Below, piece by piece: positions 3-35,384 of a stretch of DNA of 35,384 nucleotides. Position 1 is the first letter of the stretch. The number at the start of each line of letters is the position of its first letter. Origin of the DNA: Desulfobacula sp. (GTDB taxonomy: Bacteria; Desulfobacterota; Desulfobacteria; Desulfobacterales; Desulfobacteraceae); contig JAAUSZ010000018.1 in the NCBI GenBank assembly GCA_012031875.1, positions 1 through 35,384 on the forward strand, written 5' to 3'. The notes below the pieces were generated by a model. That model saw nothing but the letters and a program-made list of their open reading frames with translations. It was not told the origin of the DNA and ran no database searches. The position numbers and the translations under genes were made by a program.

Positions 3-272
3 CAGACCGGCAGCGTCACCTATAACCTGTATTTCTCCGGGTACCGGAATGTTGAAGAAGACGCCCTGGGCCACGGGACCGTTTACCGCTATGACAGGAA
101 AAAGCGGCTCATTGCCGTAGAAAACACCCTGGGCCACGCCACCCGGACCGGATACGACGGCCGGAATTCCGACCCATCAAATCATTGCTTGACAGTTTCC
201 GGGAAAAATTTTATTGCCATAAAAGGAAAAAGATTTGTGCGGGAGCATGGAAGCATGCTGAGAGGGGCCTGA
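3..272 (+). CDS. Rhs/YD-repeat protein, C-terminal fragment (partial, left edge)
   Basis: The frame starting at base 3 is open from the window edge to TGA at 270-272. Up to about base 165 it encodes two degenerate YD (Rhs) repeat units, seen as ALGHGTVYRYDRKKRL followed by NTLGHATRTGYDGR; the underlying DNA repeats CCCTGGGCCACG. YD repeats form the shell of secreted or surface Rhs toxins and related wall proteins. After about residue 55 the repeat pattern stops, and the frame runs into the TPP riboswitch, so the real end is probably earlier or in another frame. Only the tail is visible, so toxin type and full architecture cannot be judged. I am fairly sure of the repeat family and unsure of the 3' boundary. 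Confidence 0.55.
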   Translation, partial: QTGSVTYNLYFSGYRNVEEDALGHGTVYRYDRKKRLIAVENTLGHATRTGYDGRNSDPSNHCLTVSGKNFIAIKGKRFVREHGSMLRGA

Positions 273-322
273 CCCGACCGTTACATCACCTGATCCGGAT
301 CATGCCGGCGGAGGGAACGAAT
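233..322 (+). promoter_or_regulatory. TPP (THI-box) riboswitch upstream of thiBPQ
   Basis: The sequence carries the conserved thiamine pyrophosphate aptamer elements. These are CTGAGA at 258-263, ACCCG at 272-276, and the ACCTGATCCGGAT / ATGCCGGCGGAGGGAA strand at 288-317. The closing helix P1 can be drawn as ATTTGT (233-238) paired with ACGAAT (317-322), with one G-U pair. TPP binding normally lowers expression of thiamine synthesis and transport genes. An intrinsic terminator and then thiB follow directly, so this is very probably a transcription-terminating OFF switch. Confidence 0.95.
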
Positions 323-332
323 TGACCTTTGA

Positions 333-375
333 CCATTCTCTGATCCTCAGGCGTTTTATCAGGGAATGGTTTTTT
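333..375 (+). terminator. Riboswitch expression-platform terminator
   Basis: A 12-bp stem pairs CCATTCTCTGAT (333-344) with ATCAGGGAATGG (358-369), with one G-U pair and a 13-nt loop, followed by six T (370-375). It lies between the TPP aptamer and the thiB start at 392. This is the expected layout for ligand-controlled transcription termination. I did not identify the anti-terminator pairing. Confidence 0.85.
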
Positions 376-391
376 ATTGGGAGAGTAAAAG

Positions 392-1439
392 ATGAAAATT
401 CATTATGGATTAATCGGGCTGTGTGTCATTGTTTTCGGGCTGTTGGCCTGTTCCGGGGAAAAAGAGGGCTTGCCCTCCGTCACCCTCATGACCCATGACA
501 GTTTCAGCATCAGCAATGAAGTGGCCCAGAAATTTGAGGCGGCCGTGGGGGCAAAACTGGTGGTCCTGAAATCCGGGGATGCGGGGGAGGCTTTAAACAA
601 GGCCATCCTGTCCAAGAACAATCCCCTGGCCGATATTTTTTTCGGCGTGGACAATACCTTTTTAAGCCGGGCCCTGGAGGCGGGCCTCTTTGTTCCCTAT
701 GCGCCAAAGGGGCTTGAGGCCGTTGACGGGGCTCTGAAACGGGACCCTGAAAACCGTCTCATCCCCGTGGATTTCGGGGATGTGTGTCTGAATTACGATA
801 TCCAATGGTTTGCGGATAAGGGGGAAAAGGCCCCCGGCCGGGCTGGAGGACTTGATCAAGCCGGAATATAGGGGTCTGACCGTTGTCCAGAACCCGGCCA
901 CCTCGTCTCCGGGCCTGGCCTTTCTTATGACCACCATTGCCCGGTTTGGCGAAGACGGCTATATGGATTACTGGAAAAAGCTGAAGGCCAATGAGGTGCT
1001 GGTGACCAGCGGGTGGAAGGAAGCCTATTGGGGCCGGTTTACGGCGGCGTCCGAAGGGGAGAGGCCCATTGTGGTGAGCTATGCCTCAAGCCCGGCGGCC
1101 GAGGTCTTTTTTGCCAAGACACCGCCAAAGGAAGCGCCCACGGGCGCGGTGACGGGAAACGGGTCCGCCTTCCGGCAGATCGAATTTGCCGGGATTTTAA
1201 AGGGGGCCGCCCATCCGGACCTTGCCGAAAAGGCCATGGATTTTCTTTTGTCCAAGGCCTTTCAAGAGGATATCCCTTTGCAGATGTTCGTGTTCCCGGC
1301 CCTAACCGCTGCCGAACTGCCCGAGGTCTTTACAAAGCATGCCCGGATAACGGCGGAACCGGCAGTCCTGGATTCTGGCCTTATTGACCGGAAAAGGGAG
1401 GACTGGATCAGGGAATGGGCCGAGGCCATGCTTCAATGA
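392..1439 (+). CDS. thiB: Thiamine ABC transporter, periplasmic binding lipoprotein (one frameshift as read)
   Basis: Substrate-binding component of the thiamine/TPP importer. The start is ATG 392, with GGGAGAG at 379-385 as ribosome site. Residues 1-20 form a lipoprotein signal ending in the lipobox LLAC (Cys20), so the protein is likely membrane-anchored. The N-lobe shows the ThiB-type segment LADIFFGVDNTFLSRALEAG and, further on, IPVDFGDVCLNYD. The frame breaks at about 835-850 in a C/G-rich run. The continuation LEDLIKPEYRGLTVVQNP lies in the next frame, which implies one extra base. Corrected length is about 348 aa, normal for ThiB. The stop overlaps the thiP start (ATGA). The TPP riboswitch upstream supports the substrate assignment over other family members. 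Confidence 0.9.
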
Positions 1440-3085
1440 AACAAAGGCTGTATCTTCATCCCTATGCCCTGGCCGGACTGGTTCCGGCCGGGTTTTTCCT
1501 GGTTTTTTATGTTTATCCCCTGGCCGGGATCGGGGTCAGAAGCTTTTTTAAAAACGGGCAAATGAACCCGTTTTTCCTGGACCAGGTGTTTCAGTCCCCC
1601 CGGATGCTGGGGATCATCTGGTTTACCTTCTGGCAGGCCGGGCTTTCGACCCTCCTGACTCTGGCCGCCGCCTTTCCCTGCGCCTTTGTCCTGTCCCGGT
1701 ATGCCTTCAGGGGCAAGGGGCTTCTCCAGCTTTTGGCCTCCATTCCCTTTGTCCTTCCGGCCGTGGTGACGGCTGCGGCCCTCCAGGCCTGTTTCGGTAA
1801 GGACGGGGGGATGTTCGGGGTCCGCATGGAGCATCCCCTGGCCCTGATTCTCCTGGCCCATGTGTTTTATAATTTTTCAGTCATGCTCAGGATCATGACC
1901 GGGTTCTGGTCCTCCCTCCAGGGCAGGGTCCGGGAAGCGGCCATGATGCTGGGGGCCGGTCCCTTCCGGGTATTTTCAACCATTACCCTGCCCCTGCTGA
2001 GGCCTGCGGTCCTGGCCGCCTCCACCCTGGTGTTCATGTTCTGTTTTTCAAGCTTCGGGATTATCCTGATACTAGGGGGTCCTTCCTTTTCCACCCTTGA
2101 GGCGGAGATCTACCGCCAGGCGGCCCATCTGTTCAATCTTCCCCTGGCTTCCTTTTTGTCCCTGGTGCAGATCCTGTTCACCTTTTCCCTCATGTGGGTC
2201 TATACCTCTTTTACCCGGCGGGCGGCCCGGTTCATGCCCAAGGCCCAGCAGGCGGAGCTGAAAAAACCGGTGCGGGTCTGGGAAAAGTTCATGGTGGCCG
2301 GGGTTGCGGTGTTTGTGGTGGGCTTATGCACCCTGCCGCTGGCGGCCCTGGTGGTCAAATCCTGCATGTATGAAGGACGTTTTTCCATGACCTTTTATAC
2401 GGCCCTGTTTCAAAATCTGTCCGGGTCCATATTCTATATCCCGCCGGTTCACGCCGTCCAATATTCTCTCATCTTTGCCATGATTTCCCTTTTGATAGCC
2501 CTGGGGACCGGGACCTGTGCGGCCCTGTTCATCCGGTTCTGTGACCAGCGGTTTACCTCGGCCTGGGCCTCCTTTTTTGATCCCCTGTTCATGCTGCCCC
2601 TGTCCACGTCCGCGGTGACCCTGGGCTTCGGCATGATCATCACCCTGGACCGGCCGCCCTTGAACCTGAGAACCTCGTTTTTCCTCATCCCCATTGCCCA
2701 TGCCCTGGTGGGCTTTCCCTTTGTGGTGAGATCCATCCTCCCGGCCCTGCGGTCCATTCCCCAATCCCTGACCGATGCGGCGGCCGTGCTGGGGGCCTCA
2801 CCCTTGAAAATCGCCTTCACCATAGACCTTCCCCTCATCGCCAAATCCCTGGCCGCCGGGGCCATCTTTGCCTTTACCGTCAGCCTGGGGGAATTCGGGG
2901 CCACCCTTTTTACGGCCCGGCCGGAAACCCCGACCCTTCCCGTGGCCATTTACCGGTTCCTGGGCCAGCCCGGCGCCATGAACCATGGCCAGGCCCTGGC
3001 CATGTCCGTGATCCTGATGCTGGTCACGGCCTTGGGCTTTGTGGGCATTGAAAATTTCAGAAAACACAATCCGGAGGGGTTCTGA
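1436..3085 (+). CDS. thiP: Thiamine ABC transporter permease (fused two-domain)
   Basis: Inner-membrane channel of the thiamine importer, 549 aa. It is very hydrophobic, with two homologous permease halves in one chain, as is usual for ThiP/FbpB-type permeases. Each half carries the ATPase-docking EAA-type loop: REAAMMLGAGPFRVFSTITLP at about residues 165-185 and TDAAAVLGASPLKIAFTIDLP at about 445-465. The start is set at ATG 1436 because it overlaps the thiB stop as ATGA; an in-frame ATG at 1415 would add only seven non-family residues inside thiB. Its stop overlaps the thiQ start as TGATG, indicating translational coupling. No frameshift is visible. Confidence 0.9.
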   Translation: MKQRLYLHPYALAGLVPAGFFLVFYVYPLAGIGVRSFFKNGQMNPFFLDQVFQSPRMLGIIWFTFWQAGLSTLLTLAAAFPCAFVLSRYAFRGKGLLQLLASIPFVLPAVVTAAALQACFGKDGGMFGVRMEHPLALILLAHVFYNFSVMLRIMTGFWSSLQGRVREAAMMLGAGPFRVFSTITLPLLRPAVLAASTLVFMFCFSSFGIILILGGPSFSTLEAEIYRQAAHLFNLPLASFLSLVQILFTFSLMWVYTSFTRRAARFMPKAQQAELKKPVRVWEKFMVAGVAVFVVGLCTLPLAALVVKSCMYEGRFSMTFYTALFQNLSGSIFYIPPVHAVQYSLIFAMISLLIALGTGTCAALFIRFCDQRFTSAWASFFDPLFMLPLSTSAVTLGFGMIITLDRPPLNLRTSFFLIPIAHALVGFPFVVRSILPALRSIPQSLTDAAAVLGASPLKIAFTIDLPLIAKSLAAGAIFAFTVSLGEFGATLFTARPETPTLPVAIYRFLGQPGAMNHGQALAMSVILMLVTALGFVGIENFRKHNPEGF

Positions 3086-3800
3086 TGGAAAACGAGCTGG
3101 TTCTGGACCGGGTCGGGAAGACCTTTGATGACGGCAGCCTGGTCCTGCGGCATATCGATTTGCGGCTGGCCCAGGGGACAAAACTCTCTGTGTTGGGGCC
3201 CTCGGGCTCCGGGAAAACCACCTTGCTGAGACTCATTGCCGGTCTGGAAACCCCGGATTCGGGAAATATAATTTTTGACGGGCAACGGATCAATGACCTG
3301 CCTCCCCATCAGCGGCGCTTCGGCATGATGTTCCAGGAATTTGCCCTCTTCCCCCATATGAATGTCTTTGACAATATCGGCTATGGCTTGAGGATGAAGG
3401 GGTTTTCCAGGGACTGGATCAAGTTAAGGGTGGAGGAGATGCTGGCCCTGACCGGGCTGTCCGGTTTTGAAAAGCGGCAGGTGGATGCCCTTTCCGGCGG
3501 GGAGCGCCAGCGGGTGGCCCTGGCCAGGCCTTGGCCCCGGAACCCCGGCTCCTGATGCTGGACGAACCCCTGAGTTCCCTGGACCGGGTCCTGAGAAAGC
3601 GGCTCCTGGCGGAACTGACCGCCATCCTGTCCAGGCTGAACATCACCACCCTCTTTGTCACCCATGACCATGAGGAAGCCTTTGCCGCGGGAAGCCGGGT
3701 CATCATCATGAACCAGGGAAGCATCGAGCAGGCCGGAAGGCCCGAGGAACTGGTCCAATCCCCGAAGAACCAGTGGGTCAGGGAATTCCTGGGGCTTTGA
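3085..3800 (+). CDS. thiQ: Thiamine ABC transporter ATP-binding protein (one frameshift as read)
   Basis: ATPase that powers ThiBP. The chain has Walker A GPSGSGKTT at residues 38-46, a Q-loop in MMFQEFALFP, the ABC signature LSGGERQRVALAR from residue 136, Walker B LLMLDEPLSSLD and the H-loop FVTHDHEEA. The frame breaks just after the signature at about 3528-3533. The text reads AGGCCTTGG where AGGGCCTTGG would keep the Arg-Ala-Leu-Ala reading, so one G appears missing. Corrected length is 238 aa, usual for ThiQ. The start overlaps the thiP stop and has GGAGGGG at 3073-3079. This is the last gene of the riboswitch-controlled operon. Confidence 0.9.
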
Positions 3801-9059: not shown

Positions 9060-11569
9060 TTGACAGAGAATAAAGACACCAATGTGACCAGTATTGAGAA
9101 GGAGATGAAACAATCCTATCTCGAATATGCCATGAGCGTTATTATCGGAAGGGCCCTGCCCGATGTCCGGGACGGGCTGAAACCGGTTCACAGGCGTTCC
9201 CTCTATGCCATGCAGCAGGTCCGCAACGACTGGAACAAGCCCTATAAGAAATCCGCGCGCATTGTCGGTGATGTCATGGGTAAATATCATCCCCACGGGG
9301 ATTCGGCCATCTATGACACCATTGTCCGCATGGCCCAGGATTTTTCCCTGCGGTATCCCCTGGTGGACGGCCAGGGAAATTTCGGGTCTGTGGACGGGGA
9401 TTCCCCGGCCGCCATGAGGTATACGGAGATCCGGATGCGCAAGATCGCCCACCAGATGCTGGCAGATCTTGAAAAGGAAACCGTTGACTTCATCCCCAAT
9501 TATGATGAGACCCTTGAAGAACCCTCGGTCCTGCCCACCAAATTTCCCGCCCTGCTGGTGAACGGATCTTCCGGCATTGCCGTGGGCATGACCACCAATA
9601 TTCCGCCCCACAACGTCAGGGAAGTGGTCACGGCCCTTATCCACCTCATCGACCATCCTTAGTGGATATCAAAGGACTCATGGACTTTATTCCGGGCCCG
9701 GATTTTCCCACCTATGGCCATATCTACGGCACCAAGGGAATCCATGAGGCTTACAGCACCGGCCGGGGCATTATTACCCTCCGGGCCAAGGTGGAAGTGG
9801 AGGAAAATAAAAAAACCGGCCAGGAAAGCATTGTGGTGACGGAATTGCCTTACCAGGTCAACAAGGCAAAGGTGGTTGAAAAAATCGCCGAACTCATGCG
9901 GGACAAGGTCATTACCGGGGCCTCCTTTGTCAGGGATGAATCGGATCGGGACGGCATGCGCATGGTGGTCGGGCTGAAAAAGGACCAGATGGCCGAGGTG
10001 GTGATCAACCAGCTCTATAAACATACCAATCTCCAGACCAGTTTCGGCATCATCTTCCTGGCCGTGGTCAATAACCGGCCCCAGCTTCTGACCTTAAAAG
10101 AGATCCTGAACCATTTCATCAGCCACCGCAGAACCGTCATTGTCCGCCGGACCCGGTTTGACCTGAGAAAAGCCGAGGAAAAGGCCCATATCCTGGAAGG
10201 ATTGAAAATCGCGCTGGAACATCTGGATGAAGTGGTGGCCCTGATCCGGGCGGCCCGTTCTCCCGAAGAAGCCAAAAACGGCCTCATGTCCACCTTCGAT
10301 CTGACGGCCATCCAGGCCCAGGCCATCCTGGATATGCGGCTCCAGCGGCTGACCGGCCTTGAAAGGGAAAGAATCATCAGCGAATACGAGGCCCTGTTAA
10401 AGGATATTGAATGGTTTAAAAAGATCCTTTCCAGTGATGAGGTGGTCCGGGGCCTGATCAAGGATGAACTCAAGGAACTGGATGAGGAATTCGGAGATGC
10501 AAGGCGGACTGAGATTGTCGAGAGTTCGGCGGAAATCAGTATCGAAGACCTGATTACCGAAGAAGACATGGTGGTGACGGTGAGCCGGAGCGGCTATATC
10601 AAGAGAAATCCGGTGACCCTCTATGTCAGCCAGCACCGGGGCGGCAAAGGCAAAACCGCCATGGGAACCAAAACCGACGATTTTGTGGAACACCTGTTTG
10701 TGGCCTCCACCCACGCCACCTTCCTGTTCATCACCAATTTCGGCAAGGTCTACCAATCCAAGGTCTATGAGCTGCCCATGGCAGGGCGCTCCAGCCTGGG
10801 AAAGGCCATTGTGAATCTGCTGAACTTTGATGAGGGTGAGAAACTGGCCACGGTCCTGACCGTGGATGAATTTGTGGAAAATAAATATGTGGTCATGGCC
10901 ACCAAACTGGGAAGAGTCAAGAAAACCGATCTGATGGATTATTCCCGGCCCCGGTCCGGCGGGCTCATCGGTGTGAAACTGGCCGAGGGGGATGAATTGA
11001 TCGCGGCCCGCATCACGGACGGAAGCATGGATGTGTTTCTGGGTTCCGACGGCGGCAAAGTCATCCGGTTCCATGAGGATGATGTCCGGGATACGGCGAG
11101 AAGCTCCATGGGGGTCCGTGGTATGCGGATCGATCCCGGGGCTAAGGTGGTGGGGATGGAAGTGCTGGGATCCCAGAACACCCTTCTGACCGTTACGGAA
11201 AACGGATTCGGAAAGCGATCTCTCACCGAGGAATACAGATCCCAGACCCGGGGCGGGAAAGGGGTCTTTTCCATCAAAACCTCCAAACGCAACGGCAAGA
11301 TGGTGTCCCTGCTCCTGGTGGACGACAATGATGAACTCATGATGGTGACGGACAAGGGCAAGCTGATCCGCACCGCCATCCAGGGCATCAATGTCATCAG
11401 CAGAAATACCCAGGGTGTCCGGCTCATTCATCTGTCCGCCGGAGAAACCCTCATCGGCATTGCCAGACTTCCTGAAGAGGAAGAAGGGCAGGGCGAAGAC
11501 ATCCTTGATCCGGAAGATTTCCCGGAAAACGAGGAGGATATTGACACCAGCCACGACACCGAATCATAA
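9060..11569 (+). CDS. gyrA: DNA gyrase subunit A (one frameshift as read)
   Basis: Cleavage-religation subunit of gyrase, which introduces negative supercoils with GyrB. The start is TTG 9060 with GGAG at 9047-9050. The breakage-reunion domain shows [17 protein letters not shown] and the quinolone region [20 protein letters not shown], with Ser and Asp at the positions where resistance mutations usually arise. The catalytic Tyr is in [10 protein letters not shown]. The C-terminal wrapping domain has the GyrA-box QHRGGKG near 10630, which supports GyrA over ParC, and an acidic tail. The frame breaks at 9655-9662, where HLIDHP meets [17 protein letters not shown]; one base appears missing, giving a false TAG. 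Corrected length is 836 aa, normal. Since gyrA is essential, the break is almost certainly sequence error. radC overlaps the 3' end. Confidence 0.95.
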
Positions 11570-23995: not shown

Positions 23996-24070
23996 TGGTG
24001 CCCCCGGCAAGAATCGAACTTGCGCACAAGGATTAGGAATCCTATGCTCTATCCACTGAGCTACGGGGGC
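23996..24070 (-). tRNA. tRNA-Arg (anticodon CCT)
   Basis: The 75-nt minus-strand sequence folds as a full cloverleaf. The acceptor stem is GCCCCCG/CGGGGGC and the D-stem GCTC/GAGC. The anticodon stem is TAGGA/TCCTT with a mismatch at its outer pair. The anticodon loop is TTCCTAA (anticodon CCT), the T-arm GCAAG-TTCGATT-CTTGC, and the discriminator A. The CCA end is encoded. It lies 5 nt after the mltD stop and abuts the trhP start. Confidence 0.96.
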
Positions 24071-32629: not shown

Positions 32630-33059
32630 ACCCTTTCACCTGTCTGAAAATGATTAAAAACAAAATCATTAAAAGCCAGGCCGATCCAAAGATCAATAGG
32701 CCGGGTTCTGTTTTACACTATTCATACAAAGAAACCGGCAAGCCCGGCTTAACCCGTTTGTCAAGGCTTTGTTTCCGTCCCCCGGTTTTTTAGAGGGTTT
32801 GCATAAAATTAAAATAAGGCAAATATGGTGTATCAACTTACAAAATAAATTAAAATCAGGAAATTTTGTTATGATAGTTATAAAAATATAAAAATCTCCT
32901 TATAAAATTAAAATTATTACTTGACAAAGAAATGGGGATTGGGATAGCGTTTTAATGAAAATAGAAAATGTTCATGCTGCGTCTTTTTTATCTGAGTTGG
33001 CATCGTCTGTTTTTTAATGCTGCAATTCATAAAACCTAGTTTCATAAGGAGGAGAAACC
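32630..33059 (+). promoter_or_regulatory. 430-nt intergenic leader of the aromatic amino acid lyase gene
   Basis: No convincing gene is seen on either strand. From about 32800 to 32925 the sequence is markedly AT-rich compared with the rest of the window. It contains TTGACA (32921-32926), a 16-nt spacer and a weak -10 GATAGC (32943-32948). A strong ribosome site AAGGAGGAG (33047-33055) precedes ATG 33060. The long leader of about 100 nt and the AT-rich upstream region suggest regulated, possibly strong expression. Confidence 0.45.
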
Positions 33060-34679
33060 ATGCCGATCAAAGGAAAAACACTGACTCTGGACGGATATAC
33101 CTTAACCATTGAAGAATTGATGAAGGCAGGAAATGATCTGTCCATCAAAGTCAAGGTGGCGGATAAAAACTGGCCCAAGATTCGCGAGTGCAGAGCGCTG
33201 GTGGATAAATGGGCCAATGAAGAGCGCTGTATTTATGGTGTCAATACAAGCTGCGGCGGTCTGGTGGACTATCTTTTACCCAGAGAAAGGGATAATGATT
33301 TTCAGAAAAATCTGGTCCGGGCCATCACCACCCAGGTGGGAAAACCGTTTGAAGATTCAATGGTGAGAAAGTTCATGATCGCAAGAGCCAATTCTCTGTG
33401 CCGTGGTTTTTCCGGGATCAAGGAAAAGAACCTGAAAATTTACCTGGATATGATCAATAAACACGTTTTCCCGGTTGTCCCGAGAAAAGGATCCCTGGGC
33501 ACCAGCGGTGATTTAGGTCCCCTTGGCTGTATTGCCAGCGTTGCCTTTGGCGAATGGAAAGCCGTCTATAAAGGGAAGGTCATGCCGGGAAAAGAAGCCA
33601 TGGCTGCCGCCGGTGTTGAGCTCATGCATTTGAATGCCAAGGAAGGTCTTTCCCTGATCAATGGAACCTCCGGAATGGTGGGGCTTGCCTGTACGGTGAT
33701 CTCGGAAGCGACCAATACATTGAAAAATTCCGATATCATTGCCGCTTTTGCCATTGAAACCCTCATGGGAAGATTTAATCCCTTTGATCCCATTGTCCAT
33801 GAGCAAAAATATCACCCCGGTCAATACGCCACTGCCATGAATTTAACCAAGCTTCTCAAAGGAAGCGGATTGGCCATTGATGAGCTGGAACTCTCTATCA
33901 AACTTCAGTCCACCCTCAAGGAACACAAAGGGGTGTCCGTGGCGCATATCCCGGTTGAAGACGCCTATTCCATCCGGTGCACGCCTCAGTTTGTAGGGCC
34001 CACCAAAGAAGCGGTGCAACATGCCCGTGAGGTTCTTTTAAGGGAACTCAATTCCAGCAATGATAATCCACTGATTTTTACCGAACTGGATACATTTTTC
34101 CATAACGGCCATTTCCATGGCCAGCCCATCTCTTTTGCCATGGACTGCCTGGGAATCGCAATGGTGAATCTCGGGGTTGTCAGTGACCGGCGCATTGACA
34201 GATTCATGGATGAACACCACAGCACAGGGCTTCCCCCCTTCCTCTGCAAGGAAGACACCGGGGTCCGCATGGGCCTTATGGGCGGTCAGTTTATGACCAC
34301 CTCCCTTGTGGCAGAGAACAGAACCCTTGCTGTACCGGCTTCCATCCAGTCCATCACGTCAACGGCGGATTTCCAGGATATTGTCAGTTTTGGCCTCATT
34401 GCCGGAAGAAAAGCCCGGAAAATTGTTGAAAACACCAATCACATTCTTTCTTTTGAATTGCTTTGCGCAGCCCAGGCAGCCGACATCAGAGGGCCCGAAA
34501 AATTGAGCCCGGCCGGCAAAATCATGTACAAAGCCGTGCGGGAAACCCTGGAGTATATGAATTATGACAAGGTATATATTGATGACCTGGAAGAACTGAA
34601 AAAAAGGATCGAATCCGGCGAGTTCGTAGAAAGGGTTGAAAAAGAAGTGGGCGAGCTTTTGATCGTCCATGAAAAATAA
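33060..34679 (+). CDS. MIO-dependent aromatic amino acid ammonia-lyase/aminomutase (HAL/PAL family, EncP/AdmH-like)
   Basis: 539 aa. Enzymes of this family remove ammonia from, or shift the amino group of, an aromatic amino acid, using the self-made MIO cofactor. The MIO triad is Thr148-Ser149-Gly150 in GSLGTSGDLGPLG, instead of the usual Ala-Ser-Gly. Catalytic Tyr59 lies in YGVNTSCGG. Asn201 (LINGTSGM), Tyr303 and Arg306 (DAYSIRCTPQ) and LNSSNDNPL are conserved. NGHFHGQ and the stretch MGGQFMT to STADFQDIVSFG are also typical. The TSG triad, YGVNTS motif and late sequence resemble, from memory, EncP (phenylalanine ammonia-lyase/aminomutase) and AdmH (phenylalanine aminomutase) rather than histidine ammonia-lyase. 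Which activity dominates is not decidable here. A PLP aminotransferase gene follows after 20 nt. The frame is intact. Confidence 0.9.
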   Translation: MPIKGKTLTLDGYTLTIEELMKAGNDLSIKVKVADKNWPKIRECRALVDKWANEERCIYGVNTSCGGLVDYLLPRERDNDFQKNLVRAITTQVGKPFEDSMVRKFMIARANSLCRGFSGIKEKNLKIYLDMINKHVFPVVPRKGSLGTSGDLGPLGCIASVAFGEWKAVYKGKVMPGKEAMAAAGVELMHLNAKEGLSLINGTSGMVGLACTVISEATNTLKNSDIIAAFAIETLMGRFNPFDPIVHEQKYHPGQYATAMNLTKLLKGSGLAIDELELSIKLQSTLKEHKGVSVAHIPVEDAYSIRCTPQFVGPTKEAVQHAREVLLRELNSSNDNPLIFTELDTFFHNGHFHGQPISFAMDCLGIAMVNLGVVSDRRIDRFMDEHHSTGLPPFLCKEDTGVRMGLMGGQFMTTSLVAENRTLAVPASIQSITSTADFQDIVSFGLIAGRKARKIVENTNHILSFELLCAAQAADIRGPEKLSPAGKIMYKAVRETLEYMNYDKVYIDDLEELKKRIESGEFVERVEKEVGELLIVHEK

Positions 34680-34699
34680 GAAACCGAGGATAAGATGCC

Positions 34700-35384
34700 A
34701 TGCCTAAAGAAAACCTTGGAGTTGAAGAACAGATTGAAAAGAAGATCGCGGATGCCTACCGGGATAGATTTCCGGTCTCAAAAAAGCACCATGAAGAGCT
34801 GATCCAATATATTCCCGGTGGCGCCACCCGAAGTTTGAGTTATTTCAAACCCTTTCCCATCCATATTGAATACGGTGAGGGGGCCTTTGTTTTTACTCCC
34901 GAAGGCCATAAGCTGTTGGATGTCACCAATGCCTATGGCGCCATTGTCCATGGGCACGGCGACCCGGATGTGGTCAAAGCGGTCCAGGCCGGGATTGCCA
35001 GGGGGTCCCAGTATTCCAGCCCCACCCGGGGCCAGTACAAACTTGCCAAGCTTTTGTGTGAACGGGTGCCGGGGTTTGACCGGGTCAGGTTTCTGAATTC
35101 CGGAACCGAAGCCACCCTCTTTGCCATGAGAACGGCCAGGGCCTATGCAGGGAAAGACAAGATATTGAAAATGGTGGGCGGCTTCCACGGCACTCATGAC
35201 AGCGTGGCCGCCTCCACCAAGAAGAACGTCATCACAGCCGGTATTCCCAAGGGCATGACCCAGGATATGCTGGAAGTGACCTTTAATGATTTGAGGCCCT
35301 GGAAAAAAAGGTCAGGGAAAACGCGTCGGAGCTGGCGCCGTGATCATGGAACCCTTTCTCGGGGCGGCGGGGTGGTGCTTCCGA
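34700..35384 (+). CDS. Class III (glutamate-1-semialdehyde aminomutase-like) aminotransferase, partial, frameshifted
   Basis: N-terminal part of a PLP enzyme of fold type I, class III, cut by the window edge. Start ATG 34700 (MPKENLG) has GAGGA at 34685-34689. Visible are YIPGGATRSLSYFKPFPIHI, DVTNAYGAIVHGHGDP, the PLP-phosphate loop NSGTEATLFAMR and GGFHGTHDS. The PLP lysine is beyond the edge. The N-terminus, with its ARS/TRS-Arg and long lead segment, is more like beta-phenylalanine aminotransferases than like HemL. The frame is lost near 35297 (missing G before AGGCC), again near 35333, and probably near 35373; corrected text reads EALEKKVRENASELAAVIMEPF. It is likely in an operon with the MIO enzyme. 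Confidence 0.8.
   Translation, partial: MPKENLGVEEQIEKKIADAYRDRFPVSKKHHEELIQYIPGGATRSLSYFKPFPIHIEYGEGAFVFTPEGHKLLDVTNAYGAIVHGHGDPDVVKAVQAGIARGSQYSSPTRGQYKLAKLLCERVPGFDRVRFLNSGTEATLFAMRTARAYAGKDKILKMVGGFHGTHDSVAASTKKNVITAGIPKGMTQDMLEVTFNDLRPWKKRSGKTRRSWRRDHGTLSRGGGVVLP

Follow-up and report, generated by a model that had tools for sequence, protein, structure and literature searches.

The locus at the end of contig C105

The stretch of DNA analysed here, referred to below as the window, is 35,384 nucleotides long and makes up the entire contig C105 of the 357-contig assembly of a Desulfobacula sp. (GCA_012031875.1, contig JAAUSZ010000018.1). Near its 3′ end lie a gene for an enzyme of the 4-methylideneimidazol-5-one (MIO) type and the beginning of a gene for a class III pyridoxal phosphate (PLP) transaminase. 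They belong to a gene set conserved in marine sulfate-reducing bacteria which probably breaks down phenylalanine and would begin by shifting its amino group, a step known so far from the making of antibiotics. The features are:

33046 to 33054, forward strand: strong Shine-Dalgarno-like sequence AAGGAGGAG 5′ of the MIO gene (sequence reading)
33060 to 34679, forward strand: MIO-type aromatic amino acid aminomutase, predicted L-phenylalanine 2,3-aminomutase, 539 aa (open frame, Pfam, NCBIfam, PDB match, tree)
34700 to 35384, forward strand: 5′ part of a class III PLP transaminase, predicted (S)-β-phenylalanine aminotransferase (open frame, Pfam Aminotran_3)
5036 to 5899 of contig C264 of the same assembly, reverse strand: remainder of the transaminase (overlap with the end of contig C105)

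An earlier note, made from the letters of the window, had described an intact gene of the HAL/PAL family with a Thr-Ser-Gly triad at residues 148 to 150, followed 20 nt after its stop codon by a class III PLP gene with an arginine-containing segment. Both descriptions hold. The MIO gene is a single open frame whose product aligns to the entire Pfam Lyase_aromatic model (526 bits), and the transaminase frame, with its ATG at 34700, matches Pfam Aminotran_3 and carries GGATRSLSYFKPFP; the contig stops before this gene does. On contig C264 the remainder of the transaminase continues in frame, while the frame slips within the last ~100 bases of the window, where three single-base gaps appear relative to C264 (C264 itself has one). 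The odd transaminase residues past about codon 200 in the window are for these reasons most likely a contig-tail error. Small indels occur elsewhere in this assembly as well, for example in a thiB-like gene upstream which is broken across two frames.

The MIO enzyme

The highest-scoring NCBIfam model for the MIO protein is the phenylalanine aminomutase of the AdmH/EncP type (D-β-phenylalanine-forming, TIGR04475) with 664 bits, 180 bits ahead of the next model, as all others reach at most 484 bits and those for histidine ammonia-lyase (HAL) lie at 462–484 bits; since the TIGR04475 cut-off of 800 is missed, the protein is filed as AdmH-like and not as an equivalog. The best PDB match is AdmH itself (3unv), and identity is 44.5–47.4% to three AdmH-type sequences versus 36.5% to the HAL of the same genome. 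In a tree of 16 sequences the protein joins the AdmH, Vibrio, Streptomyces and Roseibium rows with 100/99 support and is set apart from three hut-type HALs and a tyrosine aminomutase, in an analysis for which the program warned of long branches. The view of the earlier note that this is an enzyme of the AdmH/EncP type and not a true HAL is borne out by these scores and by the tree.

The MIO triad Thr148-Ser149-Gly150 is invariant in all 38 distinct full-length orthologs and is shared with the Vibrio and Streptomyces AdmH-type sequences; the Roseibium and HAL sequences read Ala-Ser-Gly. Two further columns, which we take to mark substrate selectivity (they would correspond to the active-site residues His83 and Glu414 of the Pseudomonas putida hut enzyme), distinguish the window protein. 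Position 89 is Ile in this protein, Val in AdmH and His in both the hut HALs and tyrosine aminomutase, and position 439 is Gln in place of the Glu of hut HALs; across the 38 orthologs the first column holds Ile in 33 and Val in five, and the second Gln in all. Because Ile or Val replaces His and Gln replaces Glu, the pocket favours phenylalanine over tyrosine and histidine as substrate. Of the substrates named earlier, L-phenylalanine or tyrosine, the first is thus supported by the pocket residues, and tyrosine, like histidine, is disfavoured. The enzyme is accordingly listed as a predicted L-phenylalanine 2,3-aminomutase that would give (S)-β-phenylalanine.

Histidine ammonia-lyase was considered as an identity for this protein and rejected on the pocket residues, the hidden Markov model scores, the tree and the existence of a separate hutH-hutU cluster. 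The hutH model gives 462 bits, below its cut-off of 539, compared with 698 for the HutH protein of the related genome G055, whose genuine hutH adjoins hutU about 30 kb downstream.

Among the 15 best plasmid matches (of 681 records, all <60% identity), 14 are annotated as D-β-phenylalanine-forming aminomutase, with 46.9–50.1% identity, and the remaining one, on a Roseibium plasmid (44.3%), is annotated only as an aromatic amino acid lyase. On a plasmid of Roseibium aggregatum (L095, 8013-9608), an AdmH-like MIO enzyme with an Ala-Ser-Gly triad stands beside amino acid adenylation proteins and a methylaspartate mutase subunit. Other MIO-family proteins occur within the family Desulfobacteraceae: a further clade (L098, L099, L102), 33–35% identical to the window protein, combines an Ala-Ser-Gly triad and the HAL-like His with Gln replacing the hut Glu, and a distant protein on a long tree branch (L100, G082:C6) has Ala-Cys-Gly (GSVGACGDL) instead of Ala-Ser-Gly.

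The transaminase

The full-length transaminase of G055, and likewise a six-row profile of other copies, has as its top PDB match the β-transaminase 6k8h from Sphaerobacter, an enzyme reported to act on both aromatic and aliphatic β-amino acids (PMC10589169). For the N-terminal 74 aa alone, the best match is the β-phenylalanine aminotransferase 4ao9. The substrate carboxylate is bound by R41 in VpAT (PMC9850050), and the arginine aligned to it by way of 4ao9 is invariant in all 42 distinct full-length transaminase sequences. A second arginine in a “PRG” motif, also aligned to 4ao9, is retained in 43 of 45 rows. The G055 ortholog stays below both HemL cut-offs (350 of 527 bits for TIGR00713, 350 of 398 for PRK00062). 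Contig C142 of the window's own assembly encodes a separate HemL-like protein that itself falls under these cut-offs (266 of 527 and 275 of 398 bits), so it does not settle where the HemL of this genome lies. The transaminase is predicted, on family and residue patterns, to be an (S)-β-phenylalanine aminotransferase. AlphaFold models of the transaminase and of the cleavage enzyme described below, built from six-row alignments, had a mean pLDDT (predicted local distance difference test score) of 40.9 each.

The operon and its β-keto acid cleavage enzyme

The sequence downstream of the window, which the earlier note had proposed to recover, was obtained from contig C264 and from relatives, and its gene content fits a pathway through a β-amino acid. 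In G055 the order is MIO enzyme, transaminase, Lrp/AsnC regulator, β-keto acid cleavage enzyme (BKACE), AMP-forming acyl-CoA ligase and the DctP, DctQ and DctM components of a tripartite ATP-independent periplasmic (TRAP) transporter. Contig C264 keeps this order as far as DctQ, and a DctM with 81% identity opens contig C20. BKACE shares a contig with the MIO gene in 39 of 47 genomes (38 found by script, plus the partial copy of G075); in the other eight (G000, G040, G044, G047, G051, G066, G071 and G079) the MIO contig stops before the place of BKACE. The regulator gene is absent from the copies of G001, G017 and G019, and the G001 cluster is also without the ligase and has an extra 307-aa frame between MIO enzyme and transaminase. 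As regulator and ligase are missing in some copies, the constant core of the operon is MIO enzyme, transaminase and BKACE.

The BKACE protein matches the DUF849/Kce family over its full length. An HxH motif of metal ligands together with a Glu and an Asp, whose catalytic roles we take to be those of the Kce residues, is invariant in 38 of 38 sequences, and one Arg position is Lys in five of the 38. Its best NCBIfam model is that for 3,5-dioxohexanoate (350 bits, cut-off 430), and on the Kce model it reaches 213 of the 382 bits required. Since no cut-off of a characterised subgroup is reached, the substrate of BKACE must be inferred. The ligase, which comes after BKACE in most of the copies reaching that far, belongs to the FadD-like acyl-CoA ligases. 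In a relative of G042 (L011, 1756), an acyl-CoA ligase homolog with 86% identity is encoded upstream of the MIO gene, on a contig that ends inside BKACE.

Orthologs of the MIO enzyme with at least 82% identity are present in 47 of 86 genomes of the family (nine as partial matches), which excludes a chance occurrence. Dropped before counting were family MIO matches of at most 42% identity (HAL and other clades) and a 42% BKACE match in G059. The 30 loci retrieved as relatives are metagenome-derived, with assembly titles that often read Desulfobacula, Desulfotignum or Desulfobacteraceae; the nearest two of full length, both titled Desulfobacula, share 99% identity with the window across the MIO protein. 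A set of 395 genomes spread evenly over the phylum gave a MIO match at E ≤ 1e-118 in the window's own genome only, so that within this sample the enzyme seems limited to the family. When the three core enzymes were searched against plasmids, all relatives found lay below 60% identity, and the trio is absent from the (incomplete) gene tables of the five plasmid regions examined.

A proposed route from phenylalanine to benzoyl-CoA

The pathway proposed here rests on which genes are present, on their order and conservation, on residue patterns and on co-occurrence: the genes probably form an operon by which a Desulfobacula-like sulfate reducer catabolises L-phenylalanine, leading over (S)-β-phenylalanine and benzoylacetate to benzoyl-CoA and acetoacetate. 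In the first step, the MIO enzyme would shift the amino group of L-phenylalanine from C2 to C3, giving (S)-β-phenylalanine. The class III transaminase would then hand this amino group to a keto acid and leave 3-oxo-3-phenylpropanoate (benzoylacetate). In the third step, BKACE would swap acyl groups between benzoylacetate and acetyl-CoA to give benzoyl-CoA and acetoacetate, and this direct cleavage would limit the loss of the unstable keto acid by decarboxylation to acetophenone. Benzoyl-CoA would enter ring degradation, for which had and bamA were found in the genome, and acetoacetate would be activated and cleaved to acetyl-CoA, possibly by the operon acyl-CoA ligase or by a CoA transferase. 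Proteins of the Pfam CoA-transferase family are above cut-off in all five genomes checked, with three hit pairs in G055 and one in G000. The Lrp-type regulator may, at a guess, sense an amino acid and the TRAP system import the substrate.

This agrees in outline with the idea of the earlier note, in which L-phenylalanine goes by way of a β-amino acid and a 3-oxo-3-arylpropanoate to benzoyl-CoA, and for which family membership, residues and context now provide inferential support. Its third step is to be revised. A CoA ester and a thiolase had been suggested, whereas the conserved gene is that of BKACE, an enzyme expected to use acetyl-CoA to cleave the 3-oxo acid in its free form, so that the co-product beside benzoyl-CoA would be acetoacetate and not acetyl-CoA.

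A link to phenylalanine also comes from the transporter. Genome G246, taken here as that of Desulfococcus multivorans, encodes at 2.78 Mbp a TRAP system whose proteins share 74.7, 79.7 and 90.2% identity with their counterparts in the G055 operon, together with a ligase 73% identical to the G055 operon ligase. For the D. multivorans system, a D. toluolica counterpart with 74-90% identity is described as a supposed phenylalanine/phenylacetate importer (PMC5109826). As the identities between G055 and G246 match this published range and the G246 genes sit at about the map position published for D. multivorans, the operon transporter of G055 is very probably DctM9Q9P9, the system that the literature connects with phenylalanine/phenylacetate in Desulfobacula toluolica. 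In the same source, IorAB and AtoAD are among the proteins raised on phenylalanine/phenylacetate (PMC5109826); that the D. toluolica atoAD handles BKACE-derived acetoacetate is an idea only. A PDB search with the TRAP binding protein was uninformative. In D. multivorans (L141-L142 of G246, 2.765-2.800 Mbp), the TRAP/ligase set stands beside an apparent 2-hydroxyacyl-CoA dehydratase with its activator and 3-hydroxyacyl-CoA dehydrogenases, judged by their N-termini only, and that neighbourhood could be read as a cinnamoyl-CoA-type β-oxidation that takes phenyllactate to benzoyl-CoA.

Association with benzoyl-CoA ring degradation

The benzoyl-CoA genes that the earlier note had wished to see are encoded on contig C48 of the same assembly, where had (477 bits) and bamA (558 bits) are both above their curated cut-offs. 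Across the family, 50 of 86 genomes carry the MIO gene or BKACE and are counted as operon genomes. bamA or had is present in 48 of these 50 and in two of the 36 others (Fisher p = 4e-19, uncorrected for kinship), a count in which bamA includes seven genomes with below-cut-off fragments; under a stricter count, which sets the MIO gene against cut-off-passing bamA only, the figures are 35 of 47 versus four of 39. In the genus g4, two of 19 genomes (G017 and G019) have the operon, and ring genes occur in those two only. In G001 the two gene sets are neighbours: upstream of the MIO gene lie a thiolase-domain protein, had (~7 kb away), an SDR protein and bamA (~4 kb away, its frame broken near the end). 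The interval between bamA and the MIO gene holds three frames that resemble a TRAP system by inspection, the first without a family match at E 1e-60.

Evidence against the proposed route

A number of observations weigh against the catabolic reading. With regard to the enzymes, neither the MIO protein nor BKACE reaches the cut-off of its best model, that of BKACE being the one for 3,5-dioxohexanoate. Over its full length the transaminase resembles HemL entries almost as closely as β-transaminases: three HemL-type entries (300–290 bits) rank between 6k8h (308 bits) and 4ao9 (287 bits). On these matches the PLP protein does not group firmly with HemL, an outcome that the earlier note had named as refuting its idea: 6k8h is the best match overall and 4ao9 the best at the N-terminus, but the three HemL-type entries between the two speak for the other side. 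Of the motif of four residues proposed for β-phenylalanine transaminases, E75 is replaced by Ala and V43 by Leu, and Y76 is Tyr; 6k8h is likewise without E75 and has N70 (PMC10589169). Both rows that lack the “PRG” arginine are from contig C264 of the window's own assembly, where the DNA at this site differs by an apparent pair of small indels.

The genomic context contains exceptions as well. G044 and G076 (77–78% complete) have the operon without bamA or had, G038 and G043 are among the 48 by virtue of bamA fragments alone, and in G033 and G068 the ring genes occur although the operon is missing. Kinship inflates the association between operon and ring genes and explains part of it, and ring-degradation genes also serve other aromatics. 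For a partner that would take up acetoacetate, the AtoA-type model TIGR02429 has hits in four of the 86 genomes only, G000 and G055 not among them. For D. toluolica, a phenylpyruvate/phenylacetyl-CoA route has been postulated, with other proteins raised on phenylalanine/phenylacetate (PMC5109826). Finally, the phenylacetate cluster of D. multivorans (G246) has ligase and TRAP transporter without hits for MIO enzyme, transaminase or BKACE, which means that these two can function in phenylacetate use where the MIO core is missing.

Alternative explanations

MIO aminomutases and lyases work by one common mechanism, and enzymes of the EncP type are capable of both reactions. The MIO protein could therefore act mainly as a phenylalanine ammonia-lyase, with the operon ligase, which follows BKACE in most copies extending so far, activating cinnamate for β-oxidation to benzoyl-CoA and with transaminase and BKACE acting elsewhere. 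This is unlikely, since it gives no role to the transaminase and BKACE, which are found 3′ of the MIO gene wherever the sequence of a copy extends far enough, and since the G001 cluster keeps these three genes and is without the ligase.

The third step could also proceed through a CoA ester, with the operon ligase making benzoylacetyl-CoA, a thiolase cutting it and BKACE being secondary. A precedent is found in Aromatoleum aromaticum, where a benzoylacetate-CoA ligase is used together with a thiolase not yet identified (PMC4729919), and both the FadD-like nature of the operon ligase and the thiolase-domain protein upstream in G001 would suit such a scheme. We consider it a slim possibility, as BKACE directly follows the transaminase or the Lrp gene in each copy long enough, no thiolase was found among the eight G055 operon proteins, and the ligase, which the G001 cluster lacks, is 73% identical to that of the D. 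multivorans phenylacetate cluster, where BKACE gives no hit.

The same three-step logic might apply to tyrosine or another arylalanine and lead to 4-hydroxybenzoyl-CoA or an analogue. Few pocket residues decide ring specificity, and the patterns of BKACE and transaminase leave the ring substituent unfixed. This reading is nevertheless improbable in light of the His column of tyrosine aminomutase (shared with hut HALs), which holds Ile or Val in all 38 orthologs, and of the matching TRAP system, which is tied to phenylalanine/phenylacetate in PMC5109826.

Biosynthesis of β-phenylalanine as a building block or solute tailored by the transaminase or ligase, as the biosynthetic genes adjoining three AdmH-like relatives with examined plasmid regions might suggest, can practically be dismissed, because BKACE and the ring-degradation genes point to breakdown and the nonribosomal peptide synthetase or polyketide synthase considered in the earlier note as a downstream partner is not among the eight G055 operon proteins, nor do protein sizes and N-termini suggest one in the frame lists, most proteins of which were not searched.

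Comparison with known systems

Lysine fermentation also moves an amino group to the β position, forms a β-keto acid and exchanges acyl groups with acetyl-CoA to give a CoA ester and acetoacetate. The proposed phenylalanine route shares this sequence of amino shift, oxidation to the β-keto acid and acetyl-CoA exchange. It differs in using a MIO enzyme and not a radical-SAM mutase, a transaminase and not a dehydrogenase, and a BKACE of a distinct subgroup, as its Kce score indicates, and in its predicted aromatic product. The pathway logic is thus that of lysine fermentation and all enzyme families are known; what would be new is how they are combined, that the substrate is aromatic and where the pathway operates.

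With AdmH and EncP of the andrimid and enterocin pathways, the window enzyme has in common the enzyme family, the Thr-Ser-Gly triad and pocket residues; the identity is 44–50%, and it is encoded in a catabolic operon of anaerobes and not in an antibiotic cluster. The transaminase shares its fold class and the carboxylate-binding arginine with the (S)-β-phenylalanine transaminases of Variovorax, Paraburkholderia and Sphaerobacter. In aerobic Paraburkholderia, β-phenylalanine is transaminated (S)-selectively and the resulting keto acid partly decarboxylates to acetophenone, in substantial amount (PMC6150868). In contrast to these aerobes, a cleavage enzyme is encoded 3′ of the transaminase here, and the motif is partly different.

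The chemistry of BKACE is also that of triacetate acetoacetate-lyase from phloroglucinol degradation, which performs the acyl exchange on triacetate (PMC10470551) and represents the 3,5-dioxohexanoate activity of the best-matching model; the operon BKACE is under the cut-off of this model, and benzoylacetate is its predicted substrate. Benzoylacetate as a precursor of benzoyl-CoA is known from acetophenone and ethylbenzene degradation by Apc and Bal in Aromatoleum aromaticum (PMC4729919), where, by contrast, it arises from a carboxylation and a ligase activates it. The described anaerobic degradation of phenylalanine to benzoyl-CoA runs through phenylacetyl-CoA and phenylglyoxylate (PMC9765128) and takes off C1 and C2 of phenylalanine by decarboxylation, whereas the proposed route would keep both as acetoacetate.

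Among the papers listed in searches of the open-access literature, none describes the proposed route by title and abstract. We favour, with some caution, the view that a β-phenylalanine route undescribed so far is widespread in Desulfobacteraceae, in which an antibiotic-type MIO aminomutase would work in primary catabolism, BKACE would use acyl exchange to form benzoyl-CoA, with no ATP-dependent activation of the aromatic acid and no loss of C1 and C2 as CO2, and the operon would include the phenylalanine-linked TRAP transporter of D. toluolica. Phenylalanine is a constant part of the protein buried in anoxic marine sediment, where sulfate reducers are major final oxidisers. If the proposal is true, a second route from phenylalanine to benzoyl-CoA would operate there, and the retention of two side-chain carbons as acetoacetate would alter carbon and energy balances. 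It would also give a MIO aminomutase, a kind of enzyme familiar from pathways of plants and of antibiotics, a place in primary metabolism, add an aromatic substrate to the BKACE family and make the operon a source of matched β-phenylalanine mutase and transaminase enzymes.

Other features of the window

At the opposite end of the window, a thiamine pyrophosphate (TPP) riboswitch (229-333, forward strand) precedes a thiamine-type ABC transporter gene set (392-3555, forward strand), in which the broken thiB-like gene occupies the overlapping frames 392-871 and 810-1439, a probable indel. The DNA gyrase subunit A region (9060-11569, forward strand) likely contains another assembly indel, as the frame from 9662 begins at about position 198 of the model and a separate 200-aa frame (9060-9662) directly precedes it. 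A tRNA gene was identified by Rfam at 23999-24070 on the reverse strand.

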